Below are positions 1,124 through 46,780 of a stretch of DNA of 51,906 bases, piece after piece (position 1 is the stretch's first letter; every line of letters starts with the position of its first letter). A program made the translations under genes and the position numbers. Origin of the DNA: Flavobacteria bacterium BBFL7 (lineage in GTDB: Bacteria > Bacteroidota > Bacteroidia > Flavobacteriales > Flavobacteriaceae); the NCBI GenBank assembly GCA_000153385.1, contig CH672374.1:828993-880898 (forward strand), written 5' to 3'. Below the pieces are notes generated by a model, which did no database searches, was not told the origin of the DNA, and saw only the letters and a program-made list of their open reading frames with translations.

Positions 1124-2998
1124 TTACATTTCACTGACCTTTACTCGATTATTGCGCTCGTCAATTTCAATTAAAATAAGCAAAACAGAGTCTAACATAT
1201 TGAAAACAAATGATTCATCATCTATTCTAAAGACCATTTGATTCACATTTCCATTATCTGAATATTCTAATTCCAGTAATTCAGTGTCAAATTGATATTG
1301 GGCAATTTGTTGTAGGACATTTTTGATTTCGCTCGTAGAATAATTAGTCTCTATTTTAAAACTGTGCGTCACTTTGAACTCTTGTCCGTTGAGCTCATCA
1401 CTATTGATTCCAGCTCCTACTACTTTACCTTCTTCATCAATAAGTTGACCTTCTAAATTTTTAATGATAAGAAGGTTTTCAGTAAACTCATAAGTTGCCT
1501 CTATTTTATTGACAATCACTTTCCCACTTTGTGGAGCATCAATAAGCTCATCTTCAATCGTTAGTATTTTATTTCCAAAAGCATCATAAATAAATGTGCG
1601 GCCCATGTAAACTTTAAAACTACACTGTTCTGCATTAAATATAAGATAACCTTGTTCTATGATTCGATCTTCAAGAGCGACATAATCTAGCTCGTTTGCA
1701 TTAAGCATTAACTGTTTGCGAGAGTCAGATTGATCGAGTTCTTCCAGATAACGTTCTCGCTCATCAATCAATTGTTGTTCTTCTTTTAATCTTGCTGCTC
1801 TTCTCTTTTCCTCTTCAATTAATCGTTCCCTTTCTAATTGGGCATTAAGTTCATCTTGTAGAGCCTGACGCTCCATTGCTAATTTTTCAAGCTCTAATTC
1901 CCTTTCTAATTTTCTTAATTCTAGAGCTTCTTTTTCTTTTTTTACACGAGCGTTTTCTGCTTTTACTTGTTCTAATCGTTCAGCTTCTAATCTTTTACGA
2001 ACTCTTATCACCTCTCGCGCACGTTCTTTTTCTTCCTCTTTTAAACGTTGTGCTTCTTGCCTATCTAACTCTTCTTGAAGACGTCGTTGTTCTTGTCGCA
2101 TTTGTGCAGCAAGTCGTTCCTTTTCAAGCAAGGCTAATTGATGGCGTTCTTCTTGAGCTAGAGAATCTAGTCTAGCTGTTTCTAACGCTATTTGCTTTTT
2201 TTCTTCTTCTAATTTTGCAATACGAGCAGCTTCTTCTTTTTGTCTTCTAGCCAGCTGTCGATCACTTACCTCTTTCAGTTGTTGTTCTCTTTTTAAAGCT
2301 CTTTCTGCAATTAACTGTTCGTTCTTTAATTTATTCTCTTGTTGTTGGGCTTCTAATTTCTGTTTCCTGGCAAGTACATCAATTCTACGCTGCTCTTGTT
2401 GTTGTTTAACTCTTAGTCTAGCAGCTTCTATTTCTTTTTCAGCTTTTGCTTTACGTGCTGCAATTACCTCTTGAGCAGTCTGTCTGGAACTCACCTTTTC
2501 CTTTTCTTGTTTTTGAACCTTTTGCTCTTCTACGTCAGTAGAGTCTACCAATGCGCTATCATAAACTTGATTATATTGAGAGGCTTTTACTGGAGTTACT
2601 GCTTTAACAGCTTGTTCACAAGGCGCAAACTCAATTATACTATTTAAAGCAGGATTAAGAGTTAAACATATTTGATCGATACCATCTTTATTTTGTAGAT
2701 GTAATGGGAATGCGGTTCCATTTTGATCTGTCAATGTTAGTTCTAATAACACTATTATTCCACCATGACGTTTATATCCGTTCAACTTTGCTTTAACACC
2801 ATGGTTTAAAAAAAGCTCTTTAAAAAGATCAAAAATTTCTGTTCTTGTCGAACTTTTATCTATGCTGAAGGTAGCAATTTCTGTACTGGAGTGGATAGTA
2901 CGTACTATGTGTGCCGGTGTTTCCGCTTTCGCGAAAGCGTAAAACCCAACAAATAACACGATTACTAACAACTTCCATTTCCCTACAAATGAAGTCAT
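1124..2998 (-). CDS. Secreted protein with long charged coiled coil (large paralogue)
   Basis: 624 residues. The N-terminus is a signal peptide whose end, AFAKA (residues 21-25) followed by E, is a textbook signal peptidase I site (AKA) and is encoded by the genome-repeated palindrome. Residues about 30-110 match the N-terminal domain of the neighbouring 320-residue protein. Residues about 165-450 form an almost uninterrupted Glu/Lys/Arg/Gln-rich coiled coil. The C-terminal 170 residues are globular; the last about 80 (SFKIETNYSTSEIKNVL onward) look like a diverged second copy of the N-terminal domain. A spacer-rod with related domains at both ends suggests an envelope-spanning or scaffold protein, but I do not recognise a characterised family. 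It is the upstream gene of the leftward pair. Confidence 0.75.
   Translation of the reverse strand: MTSFVGKWKLLVIVLFVGFYAFAKAETPAHIVRTIHSSTEIATFSIDKSSTRTEIFDLFKELFLNHGVKAKLNGYKRHGGIIVLLELTLTDQNGTAFPLHLQNKDGIDQICLTLNPALNSIIEFAPCEQAVKAVTPVKASQYNQVYDSALVDSTDVEEQKVQKQEKEKVSSRQTAQEVIAARKAKAEKEIEAARLRVKQQQEQRRIDVLARKQKLEAQQQENKLKNEQLIAERALKREQQLKEVSDRQLARRQKEEAARIAKLEEEKKQIALETARLDSLAQEERHQLALLEKERLAAQMRQEQRRLQEELDRQEAQRLKEEEKERAREVIRVRKRLEAERLEQVKAENARVKKEKEALELRKLERELELEKLAMERQALQDELNAQLERERLIEEEKRRAARLKEEQQLIDERERYLEELDQSDSRKQLMLNANELDYVALEDRIIEQGYLIFNAEQCSFKVYMGRTFIYDAFGNKILTIEDELIDAPQSGKVIVNKIEATYEFTENLLIIKNLEGQLIDEEGKVVGAGINSDELNGQEFKVTHSFKIETNYSTSEIKNVLQQIAQYQFDTELLELEYSDNGNVNQMVFRIDDESFVFNMLDSVLLILIEIDERNNRVKVSEM
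2924..2939. repeat. Palindrome copy 1 (exact), inside a signal peptide
   Basis: Exact CGCTTTCGCGAAAGCG. In the leftward 624-residue protein it encodes AFAKA, which places Ala-Lys-Ala at the signal-peptide cleavage site. Confidence 0.95.
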
Positions 2999-3109
2999 TG
3001 TCGTTTAATTTATGACTCCTAAAGTAAACAATTAATTAAAAGGATTACCAATACTGTTTTTAAATTAGAAGAATCTACACAAATAGGCGCTAAATGACAT
3101 TAAAATAAT

Positions 3110-3139
3110 ATTGTCATTCCTATAAAGCGATTAACTTTG
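3110..3139 (+). promoter_or_regulatory. Bacteroidetes-type promoter of thrS
   Basis: A -7 box TAACTTTG (3132-3139) fits TAnnTTTG, with ATTG (3110-3113) 18 bases upstream in the -33 position. Transcription would begin about 3146, leaving a very short leader before the thrS ATG at 3160. Confidence 0.65.
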
Positions 3140-3159
3140 CAAGTTCATATTTTGTAGTT

Positions 3160-5106: not shown

Positions 5107-5122
5107 TTAAAATTATATAGCC

Positions 5123-5677: not shown

Positions 5678-5697
5678 GTAAATATCAATAAAAATAC

Positions 5698-5751
5698 TAT
5701 TTTTGCAGTCCTCAAAATGAGGGCTGTTTTATTTAAACAGCTTTCGGGCTG
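5698..5751 (+). promoter_or_regulatory. Possible promoter and hairpin leader before rpmI
   Basis: TATTTTTG (5698-5705) fits the -7 consensus, though I see no good TTTG 19-20 bases upstream. Two small hairpins follow: GCAGTCCTC-AAAA-TGAGGGCTG (about 5705-5726, with a T-rich run after it) and CAGC-TTTCGG-GCTG (5738-5751). They could be a leader controlling rpmI-rplT or a partial terminator after infC. This reading is inferred from sequence only. Confidence 0.45.
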
Positions 5752-7295: not shown

Positions 7296-8288
7296 TCAGT
7301 TTAGATGATAGATACCTCCGATATTTAAGTTTATAAAATCTCCAGCACTCAATTGAGAGCTCAAATCCCAATTATTAAAATGATATGTAGCTCCTAAGTC
7401 CACTTTATAGCTATGCTGCGTTTCACTTAGAATACTGAGAACATCGTTTAAGGTTTGTAGAAAAATACCATCATCTCCACTTAATTCATAATCTATCCAG
7501 CTGCGATTATAAGCGACACCAGAACTAAATGTCCAATCGTTATAATCTTTACTACCTATTAATTGAAACAACACAGCATGAGCATCAACTAAAGACCCAT
7601 CAATTACTGCTAGTGGTGATGAATTATCATCTGATCGTAATTCATATGGATTGAACGATAAATTTAAATCAAATAAAGAATAACTGGTTAAAAATGCCAA
7701 CTCAACAGGACGTTCATCCTTGAATAAATATTGTGATAAATTATGTTTTACACCAATTCCATAAATTGCATAATCAGATTTATCAATTTTTATATTAGGT
7801 GAATATCTTAACAGAAGTTCTGTTTCTTGCCACAACCCTACTCCTACTTGTAAGAATGGGTATGCTAGAAATCCCGTATCGATACCTTCAAAAGCCTGAA
7901 ATTCATATAGGTCACCATCAATTGTAAAATCAAAAAAGGTACGTTGCTCACCACCTAATGTAGTAGGTATAGTTGTGGACTCGTCACCTCGTATGGTTAA
8001 ATTCAATAATTCATCATTATTGATATCAAAATTCTGTTTACTCGATGGAAAAACTAATGCATTAGCATGTAATGCAACGGTAATCTTATATTTATCTAAA
8101 GAATTTGCGCTATGATACCAACCAGCACTAGATTGCATCACAGAAGCTTCTGCCGCTGGCTGCACATATCGATCAGAGATTAGAAGCAAATCGGTAAGCA
8201 CATTTCCCAAGTCATTATTTTGGGATTTAGAAAATTCCGCTTTCGCGAAAGCGAAAACACAACAAAGAATAGTAACTTTAAATTTCAT
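7296..8288 (-). CDS. Outer-membrane beta-barrel protein, DUF6588-like
   Basis: 330 residues. The short signal peptide ends AFAKA|E (residues 13-17), again encoded by the repeated palindrome. The mature start (NNDLGNVLTDLLLISDRYVQPAAEA) resembles the beginning of DUF6588-type Flavobacterial proteins, where a helical lead is followed by alternating strands. The rest has repeated aromatic-ended amphipathic strands, and the protein ends in GGIYHLN, so an outer-membrane barrel is likely. The family name is from memory and is moderately certain; function unknown. It is divergent from the YbjQ-family gene 41 bases away. Confidence 0.7.
   Translation of the reverse strand: MKFKVTILCCVFAFAKAEFSKSQNNDLGNVLTDLLLISDRYVQPAAEASVMQSSAGWYHSANSLDKYKITVALHANALVFPSSKQNFDINNDELLNLTIRGDESTTIPTTLGGEQRTFFDFTIDGDLYEFQAFEGIDTGFLAYPFLQVGVGLWQETELLLRYSPNIKIDKSDYAIYGIGVKHNLSQYLFKDERPVELAFLTSYSLFDLNLSFNPYELRSDDNSSPLAVIDGSLVDAHAVLFQLIGSKDYNDWTFSSGVAYNRSWIDYELSGDDGIFLQTLNDVLSILSETQHSYKVDLGATYHFNNWDLSSQLSAGDFINLNIGGIYHLN
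8238..8253. repeat. Palindrome copy 2 (exact), inside a signal peptide
   Basis: Exact CGCTTTCGCGAAAGCG. It encodes AFAKA and so forms the A-K-A cleavage motif of the DUF6588-like protein. Confidence 0.95.
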
Positions 8289-13041: not shown

Positions 13042-13443
13042 ATGTTACTTTTTACCAGTTCTTATAATTTTCTAATGTATTTACACTTAAGTACTGTCGT
13101 TCCCTGTATATTTTTAGGAGCATACTTACTCTTTTTTAGGAAAGGAAATACACTACATAAAGTTTTAGGTAAAATTTATATGACCTTAATGATGATTACT
13201 GCGATCGTTTCTCTGTTTTTACCAGCATTGGTAGGACCACAATTTTTAAATCATTTTGGATGGATTCATTTGTTTAGTTTTTTGACACTTTACTCTATCC
13301 CTACTGCACTAATTGCGATAAAAAAGGGCAAAGTGCGCAAGCATAAAATTAAGATGATCATGCTTTATGTAGGTGCCATAATGATCGCAGGCGGTTTTAC
13401 TTTAGTACCTGGCAGATACTTACATGGTGTATTCTTTGGATGA
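13042..13443 (+). CDS. DUF2306-type membrane protein
   Basis: 133 residues with four hydrophobic segments (about 12-32, 47-65, 72-92, 104-124). The layout fits the DUF2306 family of small four-helix membrane proteins: HLSTVVPCIFLGAYLLFFRKG, the HKVLGKIYMTLM segment and a later RKHKIKMIMLY before the last helix. Histidines at helix ends recall haem-binding membrane proteins, but no activity is established for the family. It is a single gene in the rightward direction, facing the leftward envelope operon; a palindrome copy lies in the short gap. Confidence 0.8.
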   Translation: MLLFTSSYNFLMYLHLSTVVPCIFLGAYLLFFRKGNTLHKVLGKIYMTLMMITAIVSLFLPALVGPQFLNHFGWIHLFSFLTLYSIPTALIAIKKGKVRKHKIKMIMLYVGAIMIAGGFTLVPGRYLHGVFFG

Positions 13444-13454: not shown

Positions 13455-13470
13455 CGCTTTCGCGAAAGCG
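13455..13470. repeat. Palindrome copy 3 (exact), between convergent genes
   Basis: Exact CGCTTTCGCGAAAGCG in the 30-base gap between the DUF2306 gene and the Omp85-like gene. Only three bases separate it from the latter's stop. There is no adjacent T run, so it is not an ordinary terminator. Confidence 0.95.
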
Positions 13471-17725: not shown

Positions 17726-18046
17726 AAATACAATTGTTTTAAGGTTTAAATTTCGCGAAAGCGATATCCATTACCAACCAATTAAGATGGATTTATCACA
17801 ATCAATTTAAGACAGATTAAATAGAGATAGTAAAATTTTAACCTTAAGTTAAAATATAAATACATCTTTTAGCTCATTGGTTATGAATCAATTAAACAAC
17901 TCAATAAACATTTAATTAAAACTCTTAACCATTGAGTAACGAGCAGGTCTATATAGATTACAAACGCTTAAAGATTCATTGATTTAGATTTTTAAATATT
18001 GCTGAACGGTCCAATTACTTTTGACGTAACTATAAAACTCTACTTC
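17726..18046. other. 321-base divergent intergenic region with two inverted repeats
   Basis: No gene seen. It holds a partial palindrome copy (17751-17763) near the leftward gene. It also holds ATTTTAAC-CTTAA-GTTAAAAT (17835-17855) and a wide inverted repeat, CTCATTGGTTA (17873-17883) against TAACCATTGAG (17926-17936), one mismatch in 11, 42 bases apart. These may be operators for the PhoX-like gene. I could not pick a clean -7 box. Confidence 0.5.
17751..17763. repeat. Palindrome copy (truncated)
   Basis: TTTCGCGAAAGCG: the core and right arm match, while the left CGC is replaced by AAA. Confidence 0.8.
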
Positions 18047-19517: not shown

Positions 19518-21326
19518 ATGAATATATCTAATATACACATCAATAAGACCTGCCTCATAGCAGGTCTTATTTTGTTATTAAGCTCATGTAAGCAAAGTCA
19601 GAAATATAATAGTCCTAAACCTTTAAATGTAAATCAAACTTTACAGGACTTATATCTTCAAGACTTAAAAGAATGTAAACAATATGTACTACAACTTTCA
19701 TCAACTAGTCACCATGACTCTTTAGAACACTATTATAGCGAAGCGAGAAATTCGTTTAAAAGGATTGAGCCTTTACTATCTTTTCAAGACCTTAATAATT
19801 ATAACTTTTTAAATGCACCTAATATTCTTAAAGTAGAAGAAGAAGATTTAACAGATATTAAAATAAATGAGCCACATAGTTTTCAAACTTTAGAAGAATT
19901 AATATTTACAGATCAACTAGATATCAAGTCCATTCATAAAACCTCTAATATCATTGCATCTAGATTAGAATTATTAAGTAAAAACACAGACTTAAGTCAC
20001 TATCAACCATATCATATTTTATGGATAGTCCGTAAACAAATTGTCCGTACAGCAACAACTGGCGTTACTGGATTTGATTCACCAGTATTAGAAAGCAGTT
20101 TACAGGATGCGGTTATCGCTCTTGCGAAAACGGAACAAATACTATCTTTATACTCCTCAAATTTCAAGGAAAATGAATTAAAAGAATCTTGGAAACATCA
20201 CTTTCAAAAAGCGTATCTTTCTTTACAATCAACTGATTTTAATAACTTCAATAGATATCAATTCATCACAGATCATATTGATCCTATGTTGAAATTATGG
20301 AAGGCAACAACAAAAGATTGGGATGTTCATTTCCCTTTAGAATTAGCTTTGAAAAATAATGCTAGTAGTTTATTTTCAAAAGAAACTTTATCAATAAGCT
20401 ATTTTTCAAACACAACTAATCGTTCTATAGATAATTCACAAATCGAACTAGGTAAAAGACTATTTCATGACACAAACTTATCTACCGGTGGAGCAATTAG
20501 TTGTGCGACATGTCATATTGAAAAACTAGCATTTACAGATGGTAAAGTAAAGCCTAATGGACTGACTCGTAATAGTCCTACCTTAACTTACAGTGCTTAT
20601 CAGCAAGGATTTTTTTATGACAAAAGATCTGGTAGTTTAGAAGGACAAATTGTCTCTGTCATTAATAATACTAATGAATTTCATTCAGACTTAGAGAACT
20701 TCACTAAAACTATTGAAACAGATTCTAGTTATGTAAATCAATTTACAGCTTCTTATCAACAACCCATAAATCAACAATCTGTAAGAAGAGCTATTGCAGA
20801 TTATGTAAGGTCGTTAAACGAATGGGATTCTAAATGGGATAAAAATATTAATGGTGAACTAGATAATCTTACAGCATCAGAGATCAATGGATTCAATCTT
20901 TTCAATGGTAAAGCAAAATGCGCCACTTGTCATTTTGCGCCAGTTTTTAATGGTACCGTGCCACCAGATTATATCAATACCGAAATGGAACATCTAGGTG
21001 TTCCAGAAATAGCCGTAATTTCTAATGGTCGTATCGATCCAGATTTAGGAAGGTTTGACGTTTTCAAAACAGAGAATAGAAAACACTTTTTTAAAACTCC
21101 TACTATACGTAATATTGAACTAACCGCTCCATATATGCATAATGGTGTGTATCAAACTTTAGAAGAAGTTGTTGATTTTTATAACCGTGGTGGTGGTTAT
21201 GGAATCGGTATTATTGATCAAGAATATCAAACACTACCTACTGAACCATTAAACTTATCACAAGAAGAGATGGATGACATCATTAATTTTATGAAGACGC
21301 TTACTGATGCTCGGTTTATCGATTAG
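19518..21326 (+). CDS. Di-heme cytochrome c peroxidase (MauG/CcpA-like) with N-terminal helical domain
   Basis: 602 residues. A lipobox (LLLSSCKQ, Cys24) indicates a lipoprotein. Residues about 35-290 are all-helical and recall imelysin/EfeO-type domains (HSFQTLEELIF; GVTGFDSPVL). Residues about 300-600 form the di-heme peroxidase unit, with heme sites SCATCH (Cys329, Cys332, His333) and KCATCH (Cys468, Cys471, His472), plus the conserved KTPTIRNIELTAPYMHNGVYQTLEEVVDFYN block. The family reduces peroxide or performs long-range oxidations in the periplasm. Its start codons contain a terminator-like hairpin (see that entry). Pairing with a PhoX-like gene suggests a joint role, possibly around iron or phosphate, which is inference. 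A degenerate palindrome copy encodes ALAKT near residue 202. Confidence 0.9.
   Translation: MNISNIHINKTCLIAGLILLLSSCKQSQKYNSPKPLNVNQTLQDLYLQDLKECKQYVLQLSSTSHHDSLEHYYSEARNSFKRIEPLLSFQDLNNYNFLNAPNILKVEEEDLTDIKINEPHSFQTLEELIFTDQLDIKSIHKTSNIIASRLELLSKNTDLSHYQPYHILWIVRKQIVRTATTGVTGFDSPVLESSLQDAVIALAKTEQILSLYSSNFKENELKESWKHHFQKAYLSLQSTDFNNFNRYQFITDHIDPMLKLWKATTKDWDVHFPLELALKNNASSLFSKETLSISYFSNTTNRSIDNSQIELGKRLFHDTNLSTGGAISCATCHIEKLAFTDGKVKPNGLTRNSPTLTYSAYQQGFFYDKRSGSLEGQIVSVINNTNEFHSDLENFTKTIETDSSYVNQFTASYQQPINQQSVRRAIADYVRSLNEWDSKWDKNINGELDNLTASEINGFNLFNGKAKCATCHFAPVFNGTVPPDYINTEMEHLGVPEIAVISNGRIDPDLGRFDVFKTENRKHFFKTPTIRNIELTAPYMHNGVYQTLEEVVDFYNRGGGYGIGIIDQEYQTLPTEPLNLSQEEMDDIINFMKTLTDARFID
19542..19571 (+). 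terminator. Terminator-like hairpin inside the signal-peptide codons of the peroxidase gene
   Basis: Perfect 12-bp stem AATAAGACCTGC / GCAGGTCTTATT with a 6-base loop CTCATA, then a T-rich stretch TTGTTATT. It begins 26 bases after the PhoX-like stop and lies wholly within the next coding sequence. RNA polymerase would pause or stop here unless ribosomes cover the hairpin. Confidence 0.8.
20117..20132. repeat. Palindrome copy (degenerate)
   Basis: CGCTCTTGCGAAAACG matches the palindrome at 13 of 16 bases and sits in the AFAKA-type frame (ALAKT). It could be a decayed copy or chance. Confidence 0.4.
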
Positions 21327-24090: not shown

Positions 24091-25254
24091 ATGAGCTCAA
24101 AAAAAAGACCCGTTAATACTATTTGTGTTCACGCAGGAAATTTAGAAGATGAAAAATATGGTGGCGCTACATCACCTATTTATACATCAACGGCTTACGA
24201 TTACCGTGGCGAAGGCACTAATCTATATCCACGATACTTCAATACACCTAATCAAGTTGCCTTAGGTCAAAAGATAGCTGCTCTAGAAAACTGTGAGGCT
24301 GGACTTATTTTCGGTAGTGGTATGGCAGCCATCAGTGCTGTGTTTATGGCGTTCTTAAAAACGGGCGACCATATTATTTTACAACGTGCCATCTATGGTG
24401 GCACCTCTCATTTTGTAGATGCTGAATTTTCAAATTTAGGTATTGAATATTCCTTTGTAGAACAAATTAATAGTGAATCACTTAAAGCTCATCTCAAAGA
24501 AAATACTAAGATGATTTACATAGAAACTCCTAGCAATCCACTATTAGAAGTAGTAGATATGACGGTGGTTTCCGCTTTCGCGAAAGCGAACTCTCTAATA
24601 AGCGTTATCGATAATACATTTGCTTCACCTATTAACCAGAATCCTGCAGATTTTGGTATCGACATCATCGTACACAGTGCGACAAAATATCTAGGTGGTC
24701 ACAGTGATATTTGTGCTGGTACCGTAAGTAGTTCACAAAAACACATGGATCAAATATGGAAAACGGCCAAAAATTATGGTGGTAGTTTAAGTGATCAAAC
24801 CGTGTGGTTATTAGAACGCAGTATAAAAACACTAGGTCTAAGAGTTAAACGACAAAATCGCAACGCAAAAAAACTAGCTCGGTTTCTAGAGAAACATCCA
24901 TCTATTAAAAAAGTGAATTATCCTGGTCTGAAATCGCATCCGGATTATAAAATTGCCAAAGCGCAAATGCATGGATATGGCGGTATGTTGTCATTTGAAT
25001 TTAAAGAATCGATTAATCACAATCGTTTCTTAGAAGAATTACAGGTTATTAAAGTAGCATTAAGTTTAGCTGGTGTAGAAAGTACTATTCTCGCTCCTAC
25101 TGAGACTTCACATTCACTATTAACACCTCAACAACGCAAGGATCAAGGTATCACAGATCAGTTATTACGTTTCTCTGTAGGTATTGAAGAAGTAAGCAGT
25201 CTTATAGAAGATATTGAGCGCGCCATGGAGAAAAGCCGTAAAATTGCAAAATGA
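24091..25254 (+). CDS. Trans-sulfuration PLP enzyme (cystathionine gamma-synthase/lyase family)
   Basis: 387 residues, full length for the Cys/Met-metabolism PLP family, which makes or breaks cystathionine, or cleaves methionine. The PLP lysine is Lys199 in HSATKYLGGHSD. Other family marks are ENCEAGLIFGSGMAAISAV, AIYGGTSHF, IETPSNPLLEVVD, VIDNTFASP and, near the end, RFSVGIEEVSSLIEDIE. The sequence alone does not separate synthase, lyase and methionine gamma-lyase. Residues 161-165 (SAFAK) are written by a palindrome copy with no change in length relative to what the family shows. Its stop overlaps the bshB1 start (ATGA), so the two are co-translated, which links it to cysteine and bacillithiol metabolism. 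Confidence 0.92.
   Translation: MSSKKRPVNTICVHAGNLEDEKYGGATSPIYTSTAYDYRGEGTNLYPRYFNTPNQVALGQKIAALENCEAGLIFGSGMAAISAVFMAFLKTGDHIILQRAIYGGTSHFVDAEFSNLGIEYSFVEQINSESLKAHLKENTKMIYIETPSNPLLEVVDMTVVSAFAKANSLISVIDNTFASPINQNPADFGIDIIVHSATKYLGGHSDICAGTVSSSQKHMDQIWKTAKNYGGSLSDQTVWLLERSIKTLGLRVKRQNRNAKKLARFLEKHPSIKKVNYPGLKSHPDYKIAKAQMHGYGGMLSFEFKESINHNRFLEELQVIKVALSLAGVESTILAPTETSHSLLTPQQRKDQGITDQLLRFSVGIEEVSSLIEDIERAMEKSRKIAK
24573..24588. repeat. Palindrome copy 4 (exact), inside a coding region
   Basis: Exact CGCTTTCGCGAAAGCG, encoding AFAKA in the trans-sulfuration enzyme just before the LISVIDNTF strand. Confidence 0.95.
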
Positions 25255-26208: not shown

Positions 26209-26730
26209 TTAATAGTGAAGTACTGATGCGATCTTATAATCTTTAATTTTTTCGCGGCCATTAATAAAGTCTAGTTCAATAACAAAGTTAAAACCTTCTA
26301 CTTTCCCACCAGCTTTTTGAATGATTTGAGCTGCGGCTATTGCAGTGCCGCCAGTAGCCAACACATCATCGTGTATCAATACACAATCACCAGGTGAAAT
26401 TGCATTTTCCTGTAGTTCTAGAGTATCTGTACCATATTCTAGCTCATACTTTTGTGAAATAATGGCTCCAGGTAATTTGCCAGGCTTACGCAACATTACA
26501 AATTTTGCGTTGAGTGCATCTGCTAGTAGCATTCCAAAAAGAAAGCCTCTAGATTCAATACCTACTACCACATCAATAGTTTGACCTCTAAAGTCTCTAA
26601 CGAGTAGTTCTGTGGTGATGGATCTCGCTTTCGCGGAAGCGAGTAATGGAGAAATATCCTTAAAAACAATTCCTTCTTTAGGGAAATCTGGGATGTCGTG
26701 TATGTGGGATTCTATAAATTCATTATTCAT
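26209..26730 (-). CDS. apt: Adenine phosphoribosyltransferase
   Basis: Salvages adenine with PRPP to AMP. 173 residues, full length. It shows FKDISPLLA at the flexible N-terminal region, VVGIESRGFLFG, LRKPGKLPG, the YELEYGTDTLEL block, and the PRPP loop CVLIHDDVLATGGTA. Residues ASAKA (about 31-35), just after SPLL, come from a one-mismatch palindrome copy in a region that is variable in the family. It is a single gene divergent from the DUF4139 gene. Confidence 0.97.
   Translation of the reverse strand: MNNEFIESHIHDIPDFPKEGIVFKDISPLLASAKARSITTELLVRDFRGQTIDVVVGIESRGFLFGMLLADALNAKFVMLRKPGKLPGAIISQKYELEYGTDTLELQENAISPGDCVLIHDDVLATGGTAIAAAQIIQKAGGKVEGFNFVIELDFINGREKIKDYKIASVLHY
26626..26641. 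repeat. Palindrome copy 5 (one mismatch), inside apt
   Basis: CGCTTTCGCGGAAGCG, 15 of 16 bases. It encodes ASAKA in the leftward frame. Confidence 0.9.
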
Positions 26731-39829: not shown

Positions 39830-42037
39830 TTATAATTTAATTAATTGGTGTGGTCCTTCCCAACTATAGGATTTTCCGTTAAATGTTATACTATGATTTT
39901 TGTTATCACGCTTTCGCGAAAGCGTGTATAAATAAGTGTCTTCTCCTACTTTAAAACTTAACACATCATAATCGCCTTGTTGCTCATGCGTCAATTCTGA
40001 AAAGGCAGATTTAGGAAAAGTTACCGTTTCCTGTATAGGGTTGAAGTAACCGTGAGGTTCTATTATGTTTACAAAAGTGTGGCTATTACTACCTGCAGGT
40101 TGTCTGATTAAGTACTGACGCTGCAGATTAAGGTTAAACTCTGGATCATTTGCACCAGTTTGAGTGATGAACAATTCTGTAGAAGGATCTGTAACGCTAG
40201 TGATACTATAAAATCGCTGAGCTTGTAAGAAGGTAAATTGAGAGTTTGTGCTGTTAGATTTAGGAGAACCTTTTGCAAGAACTTCTAGGTGATTGTACCC
40301 ATTATCAGTTCCTAAAACAGTTTTATTACCTGGCCTATTATAATCAAATTGTGTGTCGATGATATCACCGAAAAATGGATAGTTTAAATCCATTTGATGG
40401 CCAGTATTAGAATCCACATGATACAAATCAATTATAAATGGTCTATTTGTGATATCAGCATCATTAACCATGGTGATTGATCTCGATAATTTTGAACCAT
40501 CATATGCCATAGTATCTGCCGCTATAGTCACCTGTAAACGGTCAGTACTCATATCATTTTTCACTAGTTGAGATACGTGCTTTTCTGAGTATTTTACTTT
40601 ACCTCTATATTGTGATTTTTCATCCAGTACAAGAGCACCATGTGCAATAGTGTGTTGTGCATAGGTTTTATTTTCTGGCAGATATCTTCCACCTCTTTTA
40701 GTTTCTATATTCAAAAACCTTGCTGCACCATAATCCGGTATAATTTCATTCCCATGATCATAAACAGATAAACTTAATCTATCAAAGTGTCCATGTCCCA
40801 TTCCTTGAGTAGAAAATTTAAGAACTGCTTGTAACTGACCTGCTGTATTTTGCGGGCTGCGCATTAATGATAGGCCACCACTATTACCTTCTACACCATC
40901 TGCAATAAACATACTAGGTCTTTCATAAAAATCTTCAGTACTATCATCAATCGCATTTGCAGCAATGGCACCAGCATCAGTTAATGATATTTTATTCATC
41001 ATTTTAATTACTGGTAGCAATGAAGCGTCTTTATACTGTTTATAAGCGATATTAGTTGCAAAAACTACCTCATCACTTTCCCAAGTTTTACTCTTAATGG
41101 CATCATTGATAGGATAAAAACGACCTTGCTCATCTGTAAGTTGTAATAATGTGGTAACTGCCTTTTTCAAAATACCATCACGATGCTCAAAAATTTTCAC
41201 ATCTGGACGATTATTCTCAATCGCCTCTGCAAATGCTATAAAAGGTAAAATAGCATAACGATGATAGTAAGGTCCTTCACTATAAAACCCATCGCTAGAG
41301 AATAAATGATCTAATTGCGCTATAAAACCTGTTTTACCATCTTTATTACTTCCGTAAATAGAACGGTCTATCATATCGTCATCACCCAAAACCATCCCAG
41401 TCATTCCTACCGCAGCAACAGACCATGTCCCGTGATTGTGAATCTTATTAAAGACATCATAACTATCGACGCTTAAGAACTTTGCCATAGGGCGCAATAA
41501 GTCGTTTTCAATTTTCACACGCTCATTGTCAGTCATATATTCACGTGTCATGTCATAGGCTTGTATCATGTAAAAAAGCGTTACCGCTTCATTAAGGCCT
41601 TGCCAGTATAATTTACCACCTGGATGATTCTCTTTATCCTTAGGATGCATTCCTAAGGTAGGATACATATTAGCATATCCATCAAACATTTCTTTAATGT
41701 AGGATAATTTTTTATCCGTTGGATTTATGTTATATGAAATTGCAACTCGATATAATTCTGCATAATTTCTCTTATGCTTTTCATGTGAGTATCCACCACC
41801 AGCATCTACTGGTTGAGGTATAACTACCGGTTCATTTAGTATGGCTTCAACTTTACTCTCTAAATCTTCTGTAGCTAGATTTACAATCTCATTATCTGAA
41901 TTTTTAAATGAGTCTATTCCCGAAGCTGACAATAGCAGCTTGCTAGTTGAATTTGAAGAGTCTACAGTTGTTTGCTTTTGCTCACAAGCTGTAAAAGTGA
42001 TAATTAATACGGCAAGAAATATAATTCTTTGAAGCAT
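39830..42037 (-). CDS. Exo-oligoalginate lyase, polysaccharide lyase family 17, lipoprotein
   Basis: 735 residues from MLQRIIFLAVLIITFTACEQ (lipobox TFTAC); an upstream in-frame start would bury this signal. The N-terminal alpha/alpha toroid (about 55-390) has Asn201-His202 in IHNHGTW and Tyr258 in EGPYYHRY, the same residues and numbers reported for the PL17 enzyme Alg17C. The C-terminal heparinase II/III beta-sheet domain (about 400-735) contains MGHGHFDRLSLSVYDHG. The enzyme trims alginate oligomers to unsaturated monomer, completing work begun by PL6. First gene of the operon with KdgF and two reductases. A palindrome copy encodes LSRKR close to the C-terminus. Confidence 0.95.
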   Translation of the reverse strand: MLQRIIFLAVLIITFTACEQKQTTVDSSNSTSKLLLSASGIDSFKNSDNEIVNLATEDLESKVEAILNEPVVIPQPVDAGGGYSHEKHKRNYAELYRVAISYNINPTDKKLSYIKEMFDGYANMYPTLGMHPKDKENHPGGKLYWQGLNEAVTLFYMIQAYDMTREYMTDNERVKIENDLLRPMAKFLSVDSYDVFNKIHNHGTWSVAAVGMTGMVLGDDDMIDRSIYGSNKDGKTGFIAQLDHLFSSDGFYSEGPYYHRYAILPFIAFAEAIENNRPDVKIFEHRDGILKKAVTTLLQLTDEQGRFYPINDAIKSKTWESDEVVFATNIAYKQYKDASLLPVIKMMNKISLTDAGAIAANAIDDSTEDFYERPSMFIADGVEGNSGGLSLMRSPQNTAGQLQAVLKFSTQGMGHGHFDRLSLSVYDHGNEIIPDYGAARFLNIETKRGGRYLPENKTYAQHTIAHGALVLDEKSQYRGKVKYSEKHVSQLVKNDMSTDRLQVTIAADTMAYDGSKLSRSITMVNDADITNRPFIIDLYHVDSNTGHQMDLNYPFFGDIIDTQFDYNRPGNKTVLGTDNGYNHLEVLAKGSPKSNSTNSQFTFLQAQRFYSITSVTDPSTELFITQTGANDPEFNLNLQRQYLIRQPAGSNSHTFVNIIEPHGYFNPIQETVTFPKSAFSELTHEQQGDYDVLSFKVGEDTYLYTLSRKRDNKNHSITFNGKSYSWEGPHQLIKL
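39907..39926. repeat. Palindrome copy 6 (exact, extended to 20 bases) in PL17
   Basis: CACGCTTTCGCGAAAGCGTG is a perfect 20-base palindrome. It is read in a third frame (LSRKR) near the PL17 C-terminus. Confidence 0.95.
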
Positions 42038-42087
42038 AAATCCATTAAGTTTAAAAGATAAAACGATAGAAATCAGCCTTATCATAA

Positions 42088-42101
42088 ATTGGTTAACCAA
42101 T
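42088..42101 (-). promoter_or_regulatory. Candidate GntR/FadR-type operator of the alginate operon
   Basis: ATTGGTTAACCAAT is a perfect 14-base palindrome 51 bases before the PL17 start. TGGT-TA-ACCA is the form bound by FadR-like GntR regulators, which often control uronate genes. No GntR gene is in the window. Confidence 0.6.
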
Positions 42102-42198
42102 CTGGTTGCCCAAATTAAAGGATTTCACAGTGGAATTGCAAATCAATAGCCTGTTTTGTTTGAACAATCTGATAAATAAGGTAGTATTTTTAAGAATA

Positions 42199-42214
42199 TG
42201 CTTTCGCGAAAGCG
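42199..42214. repeat. Palindrome copy 7 (one mismatch), intergenic
   Basis: TGCTTTCGCGAAAGCG, 15 of 16, shortly after the stop of the EamA transporter and before the PL17 promoter region. Confidence 0.92.
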
Positions 42215-42227
42215 TAAAATGGATTCT

Positions 42228-43079
42228 CTAAGAGCTCTGTTTAGACTTGTATAAAATATTAAGTACTAAACCAGTAATTACTAATGCAATTCCTAATACC
42301 GACCAAAGAGTATACACCTCTAAGAACCATAAAACACCAATGATTACAGTAAATATGACCTCTAAATATTTTAATGGTGCTACTTGATTAGTCGATGCTA
42401 TTTGAAATGATTTGGTCATAAATAACTGACCTATAAAGCCCACTACACCTAATCCTAACAATAAAAGCCACTCATTGCCTACCGGTGTTTTCCAATCGTT
42501 AAGGGCTAGTATTCCTCCTAAAATAGTCCCAATAATCATAAAATAATTGATGATGACCATAGGATGATCTTGTTTCCCAATTTTAGAGATCACAACGAAT
42601 ACCAGTCCCATACACAATGCCGATGTTAGAACTAATAATAATCCTATAACACTCGATGTGCCATCAAAACCTTGCAGTACAAAAACTCCTGCTAGCGCCA
42701 TGAGAAAGAACATCCATTGCCATGGTTTTATAGTTTCTTTGAGCCATATTACTGCAAATATTGCTGCAAATACTGGTGACATATATCTTAATGTCACCGC
42801 TGTACCAACTGGTAAATATTTTAATGACATAAAAAATAAAATAAGAGAAACGGCTCCTATAACGCCACGTGCAATTAGTAAGGTGCGTTTATTACCTAGT
42901 AATGGTATCTTTTTAAAGATTAAATAAGGCATGGTAAATATTAAAGTACCTAGTGATCGAAAAAATACTTTTACATAAGCACTAAATCCATCAAGATATT
43001 TAACAACTCCATTCATTACTGCAAAAGCTAGAGTGCTTAACAGCATGAAAATAATAGCTTTTTTAAGGTCTGCCTTCAT
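42228..43079 (-). CDS. EamA/DMT-family transporter
   Basis: 283 residues from ATG 43079 (MKADLKKAIIFMLLSTLAFAV); an in-frame TTG four codons upstream is less likely. Ten hydrophobic helices in two EamA repeats (about 5-130 and 145-275), each with the usual short loops. KYLPVGTAVTLRYMSPVFAA and NQVAPLKYLEVIFTVIIGVLWF are characteristic repeat ends. The family exports or imports small metabolites in the inner membrane. It sits between the alginate operon and the GH2 gene in the same direction, but has sizeable gaps on both sides (190 and 89 bases), so its link to sugar use is only positional. Confidence 0.9.
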   Translation of the reverse strand: MKADLKKAIIFMLLSTLAFAVMNGVVKYLDGFSAYVKVFFRSLGTLIFTMPYLIFKKIPLLGNKRTLLIARGVIGAVSLILFFMSLKYLPVGTAVTLRYMSPVFAAIFAVIWLKETIKPWQWMFFLMALAGVFVLQGFDGTSSVIGLLLVLTSALCMGLVFVVISKIGKQDHPMVIINYFMIIGTILGGILALNDWKTPVGNEWLLLLGLGVVGFIGQLFMTKSFQIASTNQVAPLKYLEVIFTVIIGVLWFLEVYTLWSVLGIALVITGLVLNILYKSKQSS

Positions 43080-43168
43080 ATAGAATTGCAAAGATGAGTT
43101 TTTACTTTAAGAAACAATAAATCCTAACCAATAATACTTAGGTTGAATATAATTATCTATAACAATTT

Positions 43169-45580
43169 CTAGTCGATTACTAAATATGTTCCTTTAAAAC
43201 TCTGATTCAACACCATTACCTCTAGAGGTGCACCGCTAGTATCTCTTATTGCTTCTATAGAGGCTCGACCGTTTGCCATTCTAATTGATTCACTTCCTGT
43301 AGGAGTTCCTAAACTTTTCATGGTTGCACCACCAGACAAAGCTTGAAAGTACACGCGATCTTCATAATCTAAACAACGTAAACCATCGCTATCTTTTGCT
43401 ATAGCTGTGATCAAATAATTACCATTATCAAGTTTTTTAGATTCTAGAATTAGTTTTTTGGCTTTACCATTTTTTGTAAATCTATAATTCACTTCTAATT
43501 CATCTATAACTTCTTTACCCTTTGCAGTTTTTCCTACTGCTATCATAGAATTTTTTCCTTCTTTAAAATCCACCAACCATGTTAATCCAGATGCGGGAAA
43601 TTTTGAAATATCTTTACTCTTTGTTCCCAGAGATTTACCGTTCATGAAAAACTCAACCTCTGGTGCGTTAGAATATACGCTGATTTCTCTTTTAGTTCCT
43701 TTAGGACCTTGACGTTCTGTCCAGGTATGTGATTCTATCCATGCAAATGGTTCATTACTCCAGTAACTTTTAAAGACATAATAAGCATCTTTGGGATTAT
43801 TATCACGATCTACTAATCCTTTCTGGTTGATATATGGAATGTCATTTTCTGGTCGTAGTGGTGTCCCAAAATCTTTAAATGCCCATTGTGCATTACCTAT
43901 AAAGGTAGAATCCGTTTCTGAGATTCTTAAATGCCAGTCAAATAAATCGACCATATAGTTCTCACTCCAGTCGCCTATTTGAGCAATATTTGCGACATCT
44001 GTCTGTACAATGGCTTCTTCCCAACCATCGGCTTTAATTTCTCCTTCACCAGTGATTGGGTTTTCTGTATGACGGCCTAAATGACTGCTACCACCATATT
44101 CTGTATGGATAAAATGCTTGTATTGCGCTTTATATTGATCAATAGCTTTTTGGTAGCTTTTATAACTTCCAGAATACCATCCAGACCAAATAGAAGGAGA
44201 AAACACATCTACTATATCTGCTCCTTCGTAATACTTTCTGATAGCGGTTACTCGTGACGGATCCATTTCGTGTGCTAAATCATTAAGTGATTGTAAATAC
44301 TTGTTCATATTTACTGTATTATCACCATCTTCAAAATCTGGTAACCAATACATTTCATTTCCTAATGACCAAAAAACTATACTGGGATGATTATAGTTTT
44401 GATTGATGATTTCTTTCATCATGTTTGTTGTGTTCTTTTTCCAGGTATCATTACCTAAACCACCACGGCACCATGGCAATTCATCCCAAACTATTAGTCC
44501 TAGCTCATCACAAGCTTTATAAACTTCTGGATCTTGTGGATAATGTGCTAGTCTTACAAAATTAGTTCCCATGCCTTTTATAAGTTCTATATCTGCACGG
44601 TGCTGTTCATTACTCATGGCCGCTCCTACTCCAGCGTGTTCTTCATGTCTGTGAGTTCCTCTTAATAATAGACGTTCTCCATTTAAATAAAACGCGCCAT
44701 GATCTTTAAATTCAAACCAGCGTAATCCCACTTTTTCCTCGGTTTGATCAATGATTTTATCGCCGTTTTTAATAGTTGTAGTTAAGGTATAAAGGTTAGG
44801 AGTTTTGGTACTCCAAAGCTCTGGGAATGCGATATTTTCAAATGATAGACTCGTGAATTTATCAGTTCCAACGGCTTCAGTCATTTTAACCGATTTACCT
44901 GTCGGTGATGTTAGTTCACAATCTACTATAAACTCTTTTGGAAGCGCTGAAGTTTCCACATTAATAAGTACGCTAGCATTTTCTGCAGAAACTGTTGGTG
45001 TAACTTTTACTCTATCAATATGTGTTTCAGGTAAAGTTAATAACCATACATCTCTTGTGATACCACCATAAATAAAGAAATCACTTTTTTGAGAAGGAAT
45101 CACTTCTGGATCATAGCTGTTATCTGCTCTAACTAATACTTCATTACTTCCTGCTTTTACTACATCTGTAATATCTACTGTAAAACCTATGTAACCACCT
45201 ATATGACCACCTACCTTTGTTCCGTTCACATATACTTCAGAAACGATGTTTACTCCTTCAAAATAAAGTTCATAAACGGCATTATCAGCAATAGTTTCTA
45301 TATTCAAATCTTTCTTATACCAGCTAGAACTACGTCTATAACCTGGATTTAAATCTGTCGCATCCAGCGCATTCCATGTATGTGGTAGGTTTATAGAATG
45401 CCATCCTTCCATTAATATGGCTTCATTCAAATCTTGTGTAGGATGCTCTAGATATTGCCAGTCTTGATTAATATTAGTCTTAGACCTTTCAACTTTAGCG
45501 GTTGATATCCTTGACATATCTGAGTCACAGCTGGCTGTAATCACAAATATGAGTACCCAAAGTTTCAAAAAATGATTCAT
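43169..45580 (-). CDS. Glycoside hydrolase family 2 lipoprotein (beta-galactosidase/glucuronidase-like)
   Basis: 803 residues. Lipoprotein signal ending ITASC. Sugar-binding jelly-roll domain about 35-185 (INLPHTWNALDATD, YGGITRDVWL), immunoglobulin-like domain about 190-290, TIM barrel about 295-590. The acid/base Glu409 is in WSLGNEMYW and the nucleophile Glu494 in HTEYGG. The C-terminal about 200 residues are further beta domains of the kind called DUF4982. GH2 releases terminal beta-galactose, glucuronate, mannose or related sugars; which one is not readable by eye. It follows GH88 at 21 bases and so shares its transcript. Confidence 0.93.
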   Translation of the reverse strand: MNHFLKLWVLIFVITASCDSDMSRISTAKVERSKTNINQDWQYLEHPTQDLNEAILMEGWHSINLPHTWNALDATDLNPGYRRSSSWYKKDLNIETIADNAVYELYFEGVNIVSEVYVNGTKVGGHIGGYIGFTVDITDVVKAGSNEVLVRADNSYDPEVIPSQKSDFFIYGGITRDVWLLTLPETHIDRVKVTPTVSAENASVLINVETSALPKEFIVDCELTSPTGKSVKMTEAVGTDKFTSLSFENIAFPELWSTKTPNLYTLTTTIKNGDKIIDQTEEKVGLRWFEFKDHGAFYLNGERLLLRGTHRHEEHAGVGAAMSNEQHRADIELIKGMGTNFVRLAHYPQDPEVYKACDELGLIVWDELPWCRGGLGNDTWKKNTTNMMKEIINQNYNHPSIVFWSLGNEMYWLPDFEDGDNTVNMNKYLQSLNDLAHEMDPSRVTAIRKYYEGADIVDVFSPSIWSGWYSGSYKSYQKAIDQYKAQYKHFIHTEYGGSSHLGRHTENPITGEGEIKADGWEEAIVQTDVANIAQIGDWSENYMVDLFDWHLRISETDSTFIGNAQWAFKDFGTPLRPENDIPYINQKGLVDRDNNPKDAYYVFKSYWSNEPFAWIESHTWTERQGPKGTKREISVYSNAPEVEFFMNGKSLGTKSKDISKFPASGLTWLVDFKEGKNSMIAVGKTAKGKEVIDELEVNYRFTKNGKAKKLILESKKLDNGNYLITAIAKDSDGLRCLDYEDRVYFQALSGGATMKSLGTPTGSESIRMANGRASIEAIRDTSGAPLEVMVLNQSFKGTYLVID

Positions 45581-45601
45581 AAAGTAGTTTTAAAATGAAA
45601 A

Positions 45602-46780
45602 TTATTGATTCAGTTCTTGTAAGCGCAACATCAATTCAAGGAAATAATAGTCTCCATAAATGATAGGTTCATCCATTTCTGATCTTTTGGACCAATCACC
45701 AGAGCTGTGTTGAAGTATAAAAGGAATCTCTAGGTCAACTGGTAGGATATATTCCTCAGACTTTAAACTATTCAATACTTTCCTACTATAATTAATGTAA
45801 TCTTGCTTATCCGTGTAACCATAAAGCTCTACCAAAGCCGATGCCACTATAGCAGCTGCTGATACATCTCTGGGTTCTTCTGGAATACGTGGAGCATCAA
45901 AATCCCAATATGGTATACCGTCTGCAGGTAAATTTTTATGATTAATAAAGAAGTTTGCAGTTGCCTGTGCTTGTTTTAAATAATCTTGGTTTTTGGTATA
46001 TCGATAAGCCATAGTATATCCATAAATGGCCCAACCTTGTCCACGAGCCCATGCAGACTCATTGCTATAACCTTGGTGAGTTACACGATCTTTGACATTA
46101 CCATTAATCGTGTCATATACCACCACATGTACCGTACTGTCGTCTGGTCTAAAATGATTTCTTAATGTAGTATTAGCATGTTTTACTGCTAATTTATGAA
46201 AGGTAGAATCGCCCGATAATTTAGTCGCTTCAAAAAGTAGTTCAAGATTCATCATATTATCTATAATGACTGGAAATTCCCATTCGTCTGCCCTAAAATC
46301 CCAAGATCTTATAGATTGTACATTAGGATTAAATCGTGTAGCTAGGGTTCGGGCACTTTCTATTAGAATATTTTTATACTTCTCGTTTCCTGTACGATTG
46401 TATCCTAAACCAAAACTGTTGTAGACTTTGAAACCCATGTCGTGAGTTCCATCGTTATACTTTTCCTTCTCAATAAAGGCTGTCCATTTTATGGCGCTTT
46501 CGCGAAAGCGAGATTCTCCAGTAACATCACTTAACATCCACAAGTTTCCAGCATAAAATCCACTAGTCCAATCTTTGGATGGTTTCTTAAGTATCTGTTT
46601 AGTTTCTTGATTGTAGCTTCTAGGGAAAGATAAAGAGTCTATTGGGTATTTGTGTATCTCTTCATACCGTTGTGTGAGCAAATATTCTGTTTTAGAAGTG
46701 CTATTCTCATTAGCTGTATTACATGATAGTACGATTATTAAAAGCCCTAAAGCAATGAGAAATCTATTAATTAAATACAT
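45602..46780 (-). CDS. Glycoside hydrolase family 88, unsaturated glucuronyl hydrolase, lipoprotein
   Basis: 392 residues with lipobox LIIVLSC. An alpha/alpha-barrel enzyme that hydrates the double bond of 4,5-unsaturated uronic acids left by lyases and so frees them from oligomers. The two aspartates of the family fit as Asp114 (GTHDMGF) and Asp174 (VIIDNMMNLELLF), 60 apart. ESAWARGQGWAIYGYTMAY and DVSAAAIVASALVELYG are typical blocks. Residues RFRES (91-95) are written by a palindrome copy. It lies after the susD terminator and before GH2. It needs a lyase-made substrate, yet no lyase is encoded in this unit itself. Confidence 0.93.
   Translation of the reverse strand: MYLINRFLIALGLLIIVLSCNTANENSTSKTEYLLTQRYEEIHKYPIDSLSFPRSYNQETKQILKKPSKDWTSGFYAGNLWMLSDVTGESRFRESAIKWTAFIEKEKYNDGTHDMGFKVYNSFGLGYNRTGNEKYKNILIESARTLATRFNPNVQSIRSWDFRADEWEFPVIIDNMMNLELLFEATKLSGDSTFHKLAVKHANTTLRNHFRPDDSTVHVVVYDTINGNVKDRVTHQGYSNESAWARGQGWAIYGYTMAYRYTKNQDYLKQAQATANFFINHKNLPADGIPYWDFDAPRIPEEPRDVSAAAIVASALVELYGYTDKQDYINYSRKVLNSLKSEEYILPVDLEIPFILQHSSGDWSKRSEMDEPIIYGDYYFLELMLRLQELNQ
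46495..46510. repeat. Palindrome copy 8 (exact) inside GH88
   Basis: Exact CGCTTTCGCGAAAGCG, read as RFRES in the leftward GH88 frame, a surface-like region after SDVTGES. Confidence 0.95.

Follow-up and report, generated by a model that had tools for sequence, protein, structure and literature searches.

The known DNA uptake sequences (DUS and USS), which let a few bacteria pick out self DNA, have a length of about 9-12 bp and lack symmetry, the DUS being read by the pilin ComP, and we know of no palindromic example. Noc/parS and SlmA sites are palindromes of 12-16 bp, those of Noc and parS with TTTC..GAAA arms; such sites number in the tens and are depleted at the terminus. As far as the available text of the cited sources goes, uptake sequences are described in two proteobacterial families, the Pasteurellaceae and the Neisseriaceae (PMC7811141, PMC2397512). 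Within that text, the USS consists of a core plus AT tracts at a density of about one per kb and uptake profiles in H. influenzae are reported to flatten with long DNA (PMC7811141), DUS alignments show 97% identity compared with 85% around them (PMC2397512) and DUS dialects exist between genera (PMC3630211). HIP1 (GCGATCGC) of cyanobacteria, a word of 8 bp occurring about once per kb, is tied in the part of its source available to short methyltransferase sites (PMC4390886).

In the window analysed here (the whole stretch of 51,906 nt), which at 34.6% GC agrees with the AT-rich genome described in the original prediction, the 16-bp palindrome CGCTTTCGCGAAAGCG occurs in six exact copies, and the coordinates predicted for these and for two one-mismatch copies are all correct. 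When up to three mismatches are allowed, 10 matches are found compared with 0.03 expected (100 shuffles), which bears out the claim of a recurrence beyond chance; all are recorded without a strand. Three exact copies, at 2924..2939 (in ORF 1124-2998(-), close to the ORF start), 8238..8253 (in ORF 7296-8288(-), DUF6588, again close to the start) and 13455..13470 (in the gap separating the convergent ORFs 13042-13443(+) and 13474-14730(-)), have intact orthologues in 3/3 near relatives (G011, G001 and G016), and in G006, G022, G002 and G010 a copy lies downstream of the same gene as the last of these. The exact copy at 24573..24588, which is read as SAFAKA in ORF 24091-25254(+) (a Cys/Met metabolism PLP enzyme), is matched by the 14-mer in 14/14 of the genus orthologues found in the sampled stretches, its own included. 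The remaining exact palindromes, at 39909..39924 (in the 3' end of ORF 39830-42100(-), alginate lyase/heparinase-like) and 46495..46510 (in ORF 45602-46780(-), GH88-like), are intact in G011 and G001, with one mismatch in G016, and in G011 and G016, with no alignment in G001, respectively. The one-mismatch copies are found at 26626..26641 (CGCTTTCGCGGAAGCG, in ORF 26209-26730(-)) and at 42199..42214 (TGCTTTCGCGAAAGCG, intergenic), the latter with the core 14-mer intact, not retained in G011, carrying one more mismatch in G016 and without alignment in G001. The truncated copy predicted at 17751 is present, its full extent being 17748..17763 (AAATTTCGCGAAAGCG, intergenic, truncated or decayed, with three mismatches), and a further three-mismatch copy is added at 20117..20132 (CGCTCTTGCGAAAACG, in ORF 19518-21326(+), MauG-like); at the codons of the added copy the 14-mer core is intact in six more distant relatives and absent in the near relatives G011 and G016, so that it is most simply a decayed site.

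The palindrome is in great excess over chance genome-wide, a property of DUS and USS: the 3.10 Mb genome contains 423 exact copies of CGCTTTCGCGAAAGCG, compared with 0 of the reversed-word control, and the 12-mer occurs 65 times in 400 kb, compared with 0.013 expected under a second-order Markov model. This genome-wide count, together with the presence of the word in 23/23 genus genomes at 180-737 copies each, settles in favour of the original prediction the question of whether the repeat is limited to the window or at chance level. The genus is probably Nonlabens, a name based on a rhodopsin of G019, which aligns without difference over 272 residues to PDB 5fjg, an entry whose source we take to be Nonlabens marinus. 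Density is about one copy per 3-14 kb. The 14-mer core is also abundant in a Dokdonia sp. (905 copies) and in two genomes of other genera, one of which may be Dokdonia, compared with 0-19 copies in each of 391 other genomes of the family. Among 80 listed loci (L001-L080, up to 22 kb, not all flavobacterial), a look for other repeated long palindromes finds a 14-mer palindrome present at least three times only in that of Dokdonia, L015, which carries the motif; an exception among these loci is one from Neisseria with paired DUS-like words.

At orthologous places the motif is, as judged from the alignments, better conserved than its surroundings, as are DUS and USS. Core identity amounts to 97-99.6% versus 84-89% in the surroundings, all 138 third-codon-position cells within the motif are identical across species (flanks 606/820), and the exact 14-mer is retained in 14/15, 17/18 and 17/19 cases, compared with fractions of 0.30, 0.19 and 0.20 for random 14-mers. 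Copies are orthologous in four species, in blocks of 80-92% identity whose alignments run through the motif without a 16-bp gap, and in two genes orthologous copies extend across more distant species.

Also shared with DUS and USS is a spacing more even than random. Copies avoid one another, with 4 neighbour pairs less than 1 kb apart compared with 75 expected, or 4 compared with 74 among the 359 sites that remain when stretch L147 is left out. As controls, 504 eight-mers of like abundance were used, one of which, TTCGCGAA, is a sub-word of the motif and was set aside; TTCGCGAA has a minimum spacing of 730, a CV of 0.67 and a short fraction of 0.015-0.016, versus best values of 713, 0.77 and 0.107, from three different words, among the 503 others. 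In Dokdonia sp. the CV is 0.48 over 160 kb, and neighbour avoidance is weaker (6 pairs less than 1 kb apart versus 17.6 expected). Copies lie both within and between genes, as predicted, though by no means evenly split: by a simple ORF rule, 24/65 sites in a 400 kb sample are intergenic, compared with 8.6% of the DNA, and three well-conserved genes (75-91% protein identity) in 16 relatives contain 0 copies versus about 11 expected. As to rarity in recently acquired DNA, another trait of DUS and USS, AT-richer stretches hold fewer sites (rho 0.41, p 0.008), and interval length varies with GC (rho -0.27, p 0.03); the depletion at low GC is partial, with two of the 7 stretches below 38% GC holding 5 and 6 copies. 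In the two sampled chromosomes copies are found all along the sequence, with no dip in density seen at the terminus; the chromosome also has motif-free stretches of 15-29 kb.

According to the flank profile of the copies, in which those of related species are not independent and the score was measured on its own training copies, the core lies within about 50 bp of symmetric, weakly conserved sequence, the weak flank motif extending 18 bp to each side of the core, with T-rich tracts spaced about one helical turn, comparable to the core and AT tracts of the USS. On both strands the 5' approach is T/G-rich, and the downstream flank is A-rich rather than T-rich. An intrinsic terminator was considered and rejected, given the missing T run downstream and the 41/65 sites inside genes. 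One-mismatch 14-mers are scarce, with 58 versus 408 exact copies, three of the latter (which also underlie the flank profile) being counted twice where stretches L147 and L196 of G020 share 8 kb. Of 436 occurrences of TTCGCGAA in 1.97 Mb, 432 are TTTCGCGAAA, and TCGCGA is found 174 times outside the motif, the expectation being 26.5 per 400 kb of the genome that holds the window. The motif is not a short asymmetric word, a usual but not strictly defining trait of DUS and USS, and we call it DUS/USS-like rather than a member because it is a perfect palindrome with both flanks symmetric.

Some phage contigs also carry the motif, with 2-5 copies in each of at least eight viral records, all eight chosen for holding it; an integrase is seen in one of the three motif-bearing records whose proteins were scanned. 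The complete Nonlabens phages P12024S and P12024L, whose host strain lies outside the comparison, contain 0 copies even with two mismatches allowed. The lifestyle of these two phages is deduced from annotation only. In Pasteurellaceae, the available part of the source states, lysogenising phages accumulate USS and other phages do not (PMC6776037).

We consider it probable (roughly 0.6) that the palindrome serves as a sequence of the DNA uptake type, working like a DUS or USS in a new, palindromic form. An uptake or recombination sequence was the last-named role in the original prediction, and it is the one that best fits the distribution; the function itself is deduced from that fit. The transformation machinery would have a receptor, probably dimeric in view of the symmetry of its site, with a preference for fragments carrying GCTTTCGCGAAAGC in its T/G-rich approach; DNA released by relatives would be preferentially taken up and then recombined, uptake would therefore favour motif alleles, and this molecular drive would build, keep and space the copies. 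Competence genes are present on the evidence of ComEC, a family found in 23/23 genus genomes, which lends weak support because it is also found in 10/14 control genomes. DUF5689 is found in 22/23 genus genomes and adjoins a CarboxypepD_reg protein in 3/3 loci where both were scanned, in the order of the essential pair of Riemerella anatipestifer. In the available text on that species, such a gene pair is essential for transformation, its homologues are widespread in the family and pilus homologues are lacking (PMC8459023), and R. columbina, of the same family, is described in part of another source as preferring its own DNA (PMC7965970). Against uptake, the family-wide range of the gene-pair homologues includes genomes that are motif-free by present counts. 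We infer reading of the motif in uptake, a part for the DUF5689 and CarboxypepD_reg pair, a dimeric receptor, and drive, not another benefit, as what maintains the sites. More tentatively, and with less than even confidence, this may be a self-DNA uptake code beyond the Proteobacteria. Nonlabens, Dokdonia and their close relatives would then have an outer-membrane receptor that is dimeric and works without a pilus, perhaps formed by DUF5689 and CarboxypepD_reg; it would read the symmetric site of 50 bp, and the hundreds of evenly spaced palindromes in the genomes and their resident phages would be due to its bias alone.

Conservation and even spacing would follow from a chromosome-organising site as well, which weighs against uptake. 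Such a site, bound by a dimeric protein of nucleoid-associated, loop-anchor or nucleoid-occlusion type, is the main rival, albeit an unlikely one. Sites less than about 1 kb apart would then be redundant and lost, with each isolated site kept by selection, in accordance with the perfect palindrome, its symmetric 50-bp frame, the site-by-site conservation and the copies throughout two sampled chromosomes. However, the terminus dip expected from Noc and SlmA sites is missing, copies in phage contigs are not predicted by this role alone, and, as an argument rather than a test, weak selection per site could hardly build hundreds of near-invariant 14-mers. Terminus-excluded nucleoid occlusion is rejected on the same absence of a dip in the two sampled chromosomes, as are ParB/Noc sites, for which the canonical parS word is also retained (1-2 times in 23/23 genomes), usually with one ParB (a single ParB_N protein in 20/23). 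The predicted chromosome-domain mark is a possible role, though no terminus dip is seen in the two sampled chromosomes.

A by-product of the HIP kind, in which the palindrome arises and persists through an orphan methyltransferase or biased repair, would account for a GC-rich palindrome in an AT-rich genome and has a precedent in the similar behaviour of HIP1, as far as the available text describes it (PMC4390886), but is rendered improbable by the length of 14-16 bp, the few one-mismatch 14-mers, the flank motif and the finding that no core of methylase size is strongly enriched beyond the motif. Chi words are short, have a polarity and do not exclude one another. A Chi-like recombination hot spot that can be read in either direction and is entered through T/G-rich DNA agrees with the T/G-rich 5' approach on both strands; for a palindrome without polarity that avoids its neighbours, it is nonetheless quite improbable. 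A mark protecting DNA from a restriction-like host defence would explain copies chromosome-wide and in some phage contigs, but the two motif-free Nonlabens phages (with the reservation on their host strain) and the motif-free chromosome stretches make an obligatory mark unlikely, and the role as a whole is very improbable. Least credible is a link to a mobile element (REP/RAYT, IS or MITE), as its remnant or its target: the motif is repeated, palindromic and interspersed, and in one diverged intergenic gap motif-less species are also shorter (insertion and deletion being indistinguishable there), but orthologous copies without a 16-bp gap contradict it as the main source, as does mutual avoidance. 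REP/RAYT is rejected, since no Y1_Tnp match is found in 6/23 genus genomes with hundreds of copies (one 86% complete), and together with the orthology of sites between species this upholds the earlier view that the repeat is neither a transposon nor a REP cluster.

If the uptake role is true, the palindrome would be the first tag of its kind that we could trace in the phylum, a convergent Bacteroidota case within a family in which the transformation machine that has been studied lacks a recognisable pilus; it would test whether a bias in uptake is enough by itself to write long motifs into a genome by the hundred, and it would offer a handle on a DNA receptor yet to be found. If the palindrome is instead an organising site, it would be the first chromosome-wide site of that kind in the phylum known to us. 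Under either reading the word might serve genetics as a tag for transformation, and it is a fingerprint by which DNA that has lived in these hosts could be known.

Compared with Noc/parS and SlmA sites, the motif is likewise palindromic; unlike them, it has 423 copies and no terminus depletion in two sampled chromosomes. With HIP1 it shares the character of an iterated GC-rich palindrome, and the likeness that had been proposed holds as a resemblance only, since the word is 14-16 bp long, occurs once per 3-14 kb and has no strongly enriched shorter core outside it. Like the DUS of Neisseriaceae, as described in the accessible text, it shows an identity gap between core and surroundings, and it may share their core-genome bias (PMC2397512); unlike the DUS it is symmetric, and the studied relative Riemerella is, within the text available, without pilus homologues (PMC8459023). 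Another close counterpart is the USS of Pasteurellaceae, which, within the limits of the sources cited above, similarly combines many copies, an invariant core, weak AT-rich flanks and a relatively even distribution with high conservation in permissive places; the USS is also rare in acquired DNA and accumulates in lysogenic phages, traits that the motif may share. The present motif differs in being a perfect palindrome of 14-16 bp with symmetric flanks, at one per 3-14 kb, in the Bacteroidota, with uptake as its probable role.

In the window, the six exact and two one-mismatch copies of the palindrome CGCTTTCGCGAAAGCG listed in the original prediction are all borne out, with 10 matches found (against 0.03 expected) when up to three mismatches are allowed. 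The count over the whole genome for which that prediction called gave 423 exact copies in 3,103,424 bases, of which the window is C2:828993-880898, and none of a reversed control word, while the corresponding count in relatives gave 180–737 exact copies in every one of the 23 genomes of the genus. A 400-kb sample of the BBFL7 genome (C2:480001-880000, with 11,013 bases masked) contains 47 exact 16-mers and 21 one-mismatch forms; in 16 of these 21 the mismatch falls on the first or last base, which makes GCTTTCGCGAAAGC, a 14-mer, the strict core. Its inner 12-mer occurs 65 times in this sample, where a second-order Markov model predicts 0.013, and TTCGCGAA (68 copies) is no commoner than TTTCGCGAAA (68 copies).

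Aligned and symmetrised flanks of 408 copies of the 14-mer in 1.97 Mb of DNA from the genus (three counted twice; 406 with full flanks) reveal a symmetric frame that extends some 18 bp outwards from either end of the 16-mer. In the strand entering the palindrome, C falls to 2–13% at positions -3 to -18 from a background of about 19%, with a preference for T at -2, -3 and -9 to -13, for A at -4 and, weakly, for G at -14 and -15. A positive flank score, trained on the same copies, is found for both flanks in 344 of the 406, for one flank in 58 and for neither in 4, compared with 23% of random flanks. The frame is similar in a Dokdonia sp. (50 copies) and in G260, a motif-rich genome of the family that may itself be Dokdonia (19 copies), and weaker in G244 (44.5% GC, 12 copies), which keeps the 14-mer. 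Palindrome and frame together are a large symmetric site. A hairpin terminator was considered and rejected, as it would be followed by T, where the palindrome is followed by A.

The copies avoid one another. Of 364 sites in 1.57 Mb of other stretches from the genus, neighbours are less than 1 kb apart in only 4 cases, where 75 are expected, and less than 1.5 kb apart in 16, where 107 are expected, the two closest pairs being at 75 and 260 bp. For three unbroken series (60, 64 and 96 intervals), such a scarcity of short intervals did not arise in any of 20,000 random placements. Intervals in Dokdonia sp., measured over 160 kb, have a coefficient of variation of 0.48 (about 0.98 for random placement), with 6 pairs below 1 kb against 17.6 expected. 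Forty 20-kb samples of two complete chromosomes contain 0–7 copies each (mean 4.8, variance 2.8), and no dip half-way from the origin, as placed presumptively by its parS word, was seen in them. Samples below 38% GC hold 5, 6, 0, 2, 2, 3 and 1 copies, so that likely islands are on average genuinely depleted of the motif, though not all of them are; long intervals in BBFL7 are slightly richer in AT (GC 0.335 versus 0.347). The genomes G014, G018 and G019 encode, besides the usual ParB (about 300 aa), extra ParB_N proteins with open frames of 602–616 aa.

As originally described, copies lie both within and between genes, with 24 of 65 sites in the 400-kb sample being intergenic, although intergenic DNA makes up only 8.6% by a simple ORF rule. 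Genic copies are read as AFAK (21), FRES (10) or LSRK (10) and are more frequent near gene ends. Around the isocitrate dehydrogenase gene in 16 relatives, none of 68 copies falls in three well-conserved genes (75–91% protein identity; one or two of these genes are missing from two of the 16 stretches), where about 11 would be expected. The window also carries probable polysaccharide utilisation genes at 39830-48505 (alginate lyase/heparinase-like, GH2-like, GH88-like and SusD-like).

In alignments of about 100 kb with three relatives, whose overall identity is 85–87%, the exact 14-mer is retained at 14 of 15, 17 of 18 and 17 of 19 sites, compared with 30%, 19% and 20% of random 14-mers. With cells pooled over the three related genomes, and therefore not independent, third codon positions at genic sites are identical in 138 of 138 core cells versus 606 of 820 in the flanks, and intergenic sites in 104 of 112 versus 590 of 680, the latter not significant alone (p 0.09). 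The copy in a Cys/Met enzyme gene (24573) is present as the 14-mer in all 14 orthologues found. A MauG-like gene (window position 20117) carries it in six distant relatives and a point-changed form in BBFL7, G011 and G016, most simply read as loss by substitution in these three genomes; near-matches also occur in intergenic gaps. No 16-bp gap at the motif was seen across aligned orthologous sites, the alignment of one diverged gap before the isocitrate dehydrogenase gene being too poor to show whether an insertion or a deletion took place. Six of the 23 genus genomes yielded no Y1 transposase, the enzyme of REP systems.

Across 59 genomes, BBFL7 included (23 of the genus, 13 of other genera of the family, 23 of other families of the order), the exact 16-mer is found outside the genus in one of the 13 (4 copies) and in none of the 23 from other families. 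Among 397 family genomes, the 14-mer is abundant only in the genus (four of four sampled, 551–664 copies), in G244 (genus g209, 408) and in G260 (genus g225, 857), with 0 to 19 copies in the remaining 391; the Dokdonia sp. genome (L015/G193) has 905. The genus is most likely Nonlabens, given that a rhodopsin of its member G019 matches PDB 5fjg, which we take to be the N. marinus chloride pump, without any difference across 272 aligned residues. Microbial rhodopsins are encoded in 17 of the 23 genus genomes, up to three in each, and none was found in BBFL7.

The low counts outside motif-rich genera are due in part to one shared region. Stretches L150-L159, from six otherwise nearly motif-free genomes (G122, G131, G145, G155, G188 and G033), bear 1–4 palindromes each and align mutually in long pieces at about 70–97% identity; a stretch of G137 (L169) showed no alignment to them. 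The genes of L150, the sole annotated stretch, encode RND efflux pumps, P-type ATPases, a multicopper oxidase and an ArsP permease, which, with the mutual alignment, suggests a heavy-metal/copper resistance region common to several flavobacterial genera. This looks like DNA formerly resident in a motif-bearing host that then moved on, and its palindromes may be a fingerprint of such transfer.

No report of the palindrome or three sub-words was found in the open-access literature, subscription papers and preprints lying outside this scope, so that prior notice is possible; nor was this word reported among the matches listed for iterated palindromes, Nonlabens or Dokdonia palindromes, or Bacteroidetes uptake sequences. 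The main texts of a HIP study (PMC4390886) and of a 569-genome survey of spaced motifs (PMC5217627) mention, respectively, neither Flavobacteria nor Bacteroidetes, and none of CGCGAAA, Dokdonia or Bacteroidetes. Other repeated words were met with: a palindrome, GTTCCACGTGGAAC, twice in 20 kb of another flavobacterial genus (L162, G028:C1:1-20000), which may be either a parS variant or a repeated word of its own; the non-palindromic TTGATGATAAAA at 7 places in 22 kb of Tenacibaculum and AAAAACCGGTGC, with overlapping words, at 6 places in 20 kb of Carboxylicivirga (loci L044 and L072); and, in a Neisseria locus (L056), 3 copies of a palindrome, CCGTCTGCAGACGG, made of paired DUS-like words, which served incidentally as a positive control for the repeat scan.

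The palindrome might be a mark without which DNA does not survive in the cell. The phage pattern speaks against this, as the complete Nonlabens phages P12024S and P12024L (the phage genomes themselves, rather than their host strain) contain no copy even with two mismatches; their annotation names no integrase. Of 85 matches scored among those listed in viral contigs, 20 show flanks that fall within the range seen in the genus, 19 of these in contigs of about 35–42% GC, other AT-rich contigs among the matches listed being without such flanks. Eight viral records picked for the motif hold 2–5 copies in 12–40 kb, and ten proteins from three of these records include one integrase, tape-measure and head-protease matches, three matches of unknown function only and four without a match. 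In Pasteurellaceae, USS are described as accumulating in lysogenising phages and not in others (PMC6776037), with which the present pattern agrees, in a small and biased sample.

Natural transformation occurs in the family, and Riemerella columbina, one of its members, is described as preferring its own DNA; the words that the authors tallied there were no longer than 10 bp, and they listed A/T-rich ones (PMC7965970). Transformation of R. anatipestifer is described as requiring both a DUF5689 protein and a CarboxypepD_reg protein of the outer membrane, with no pilus homologues found (PMC8459023). ComEC is present in all 23 genus genomes and DUF5689 in 22, the sole miss being 77% complete; in all three loci scanned for both genes (G000, G019 and G020), the DUF5689 gene comes immediately downstream of one for a CarboxypepD_reg protein of 942–947 residues, the pair being adjoined in G000 and G019 by an exonuclease/endonuclease/phosphatase-family gene. 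On the grounds of these genes, of transformation in the family and of its uptake-like habits, we propose that the palindrome is an uptake code: a putative symmetric receptor would read it during DNA uptake, and the presumed uptake bias would spread copies through genomes by molecular drive. Since this gene pair is described as common among members of the family (PMC8459023), it does not by itself explain why the motif is confined to a few genera. An architectural protein at the sites would also give the even spacing and the conservation of the copies.

As regards the proposed uptake code, we know of no uptake word that is like a palindrome. USS are described as having weak AT tracts beside a strict core and as being spread relatively evenly (PMC7811141), and DUS as conserved (97% versus 85%) where the core genome is permissive (PMC2397512). 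Compared with these systems, the copy density of the palindrome is lower. The palindrome shares with them the strict core, the weak AT-tract flanks, the even spread and the conservation.
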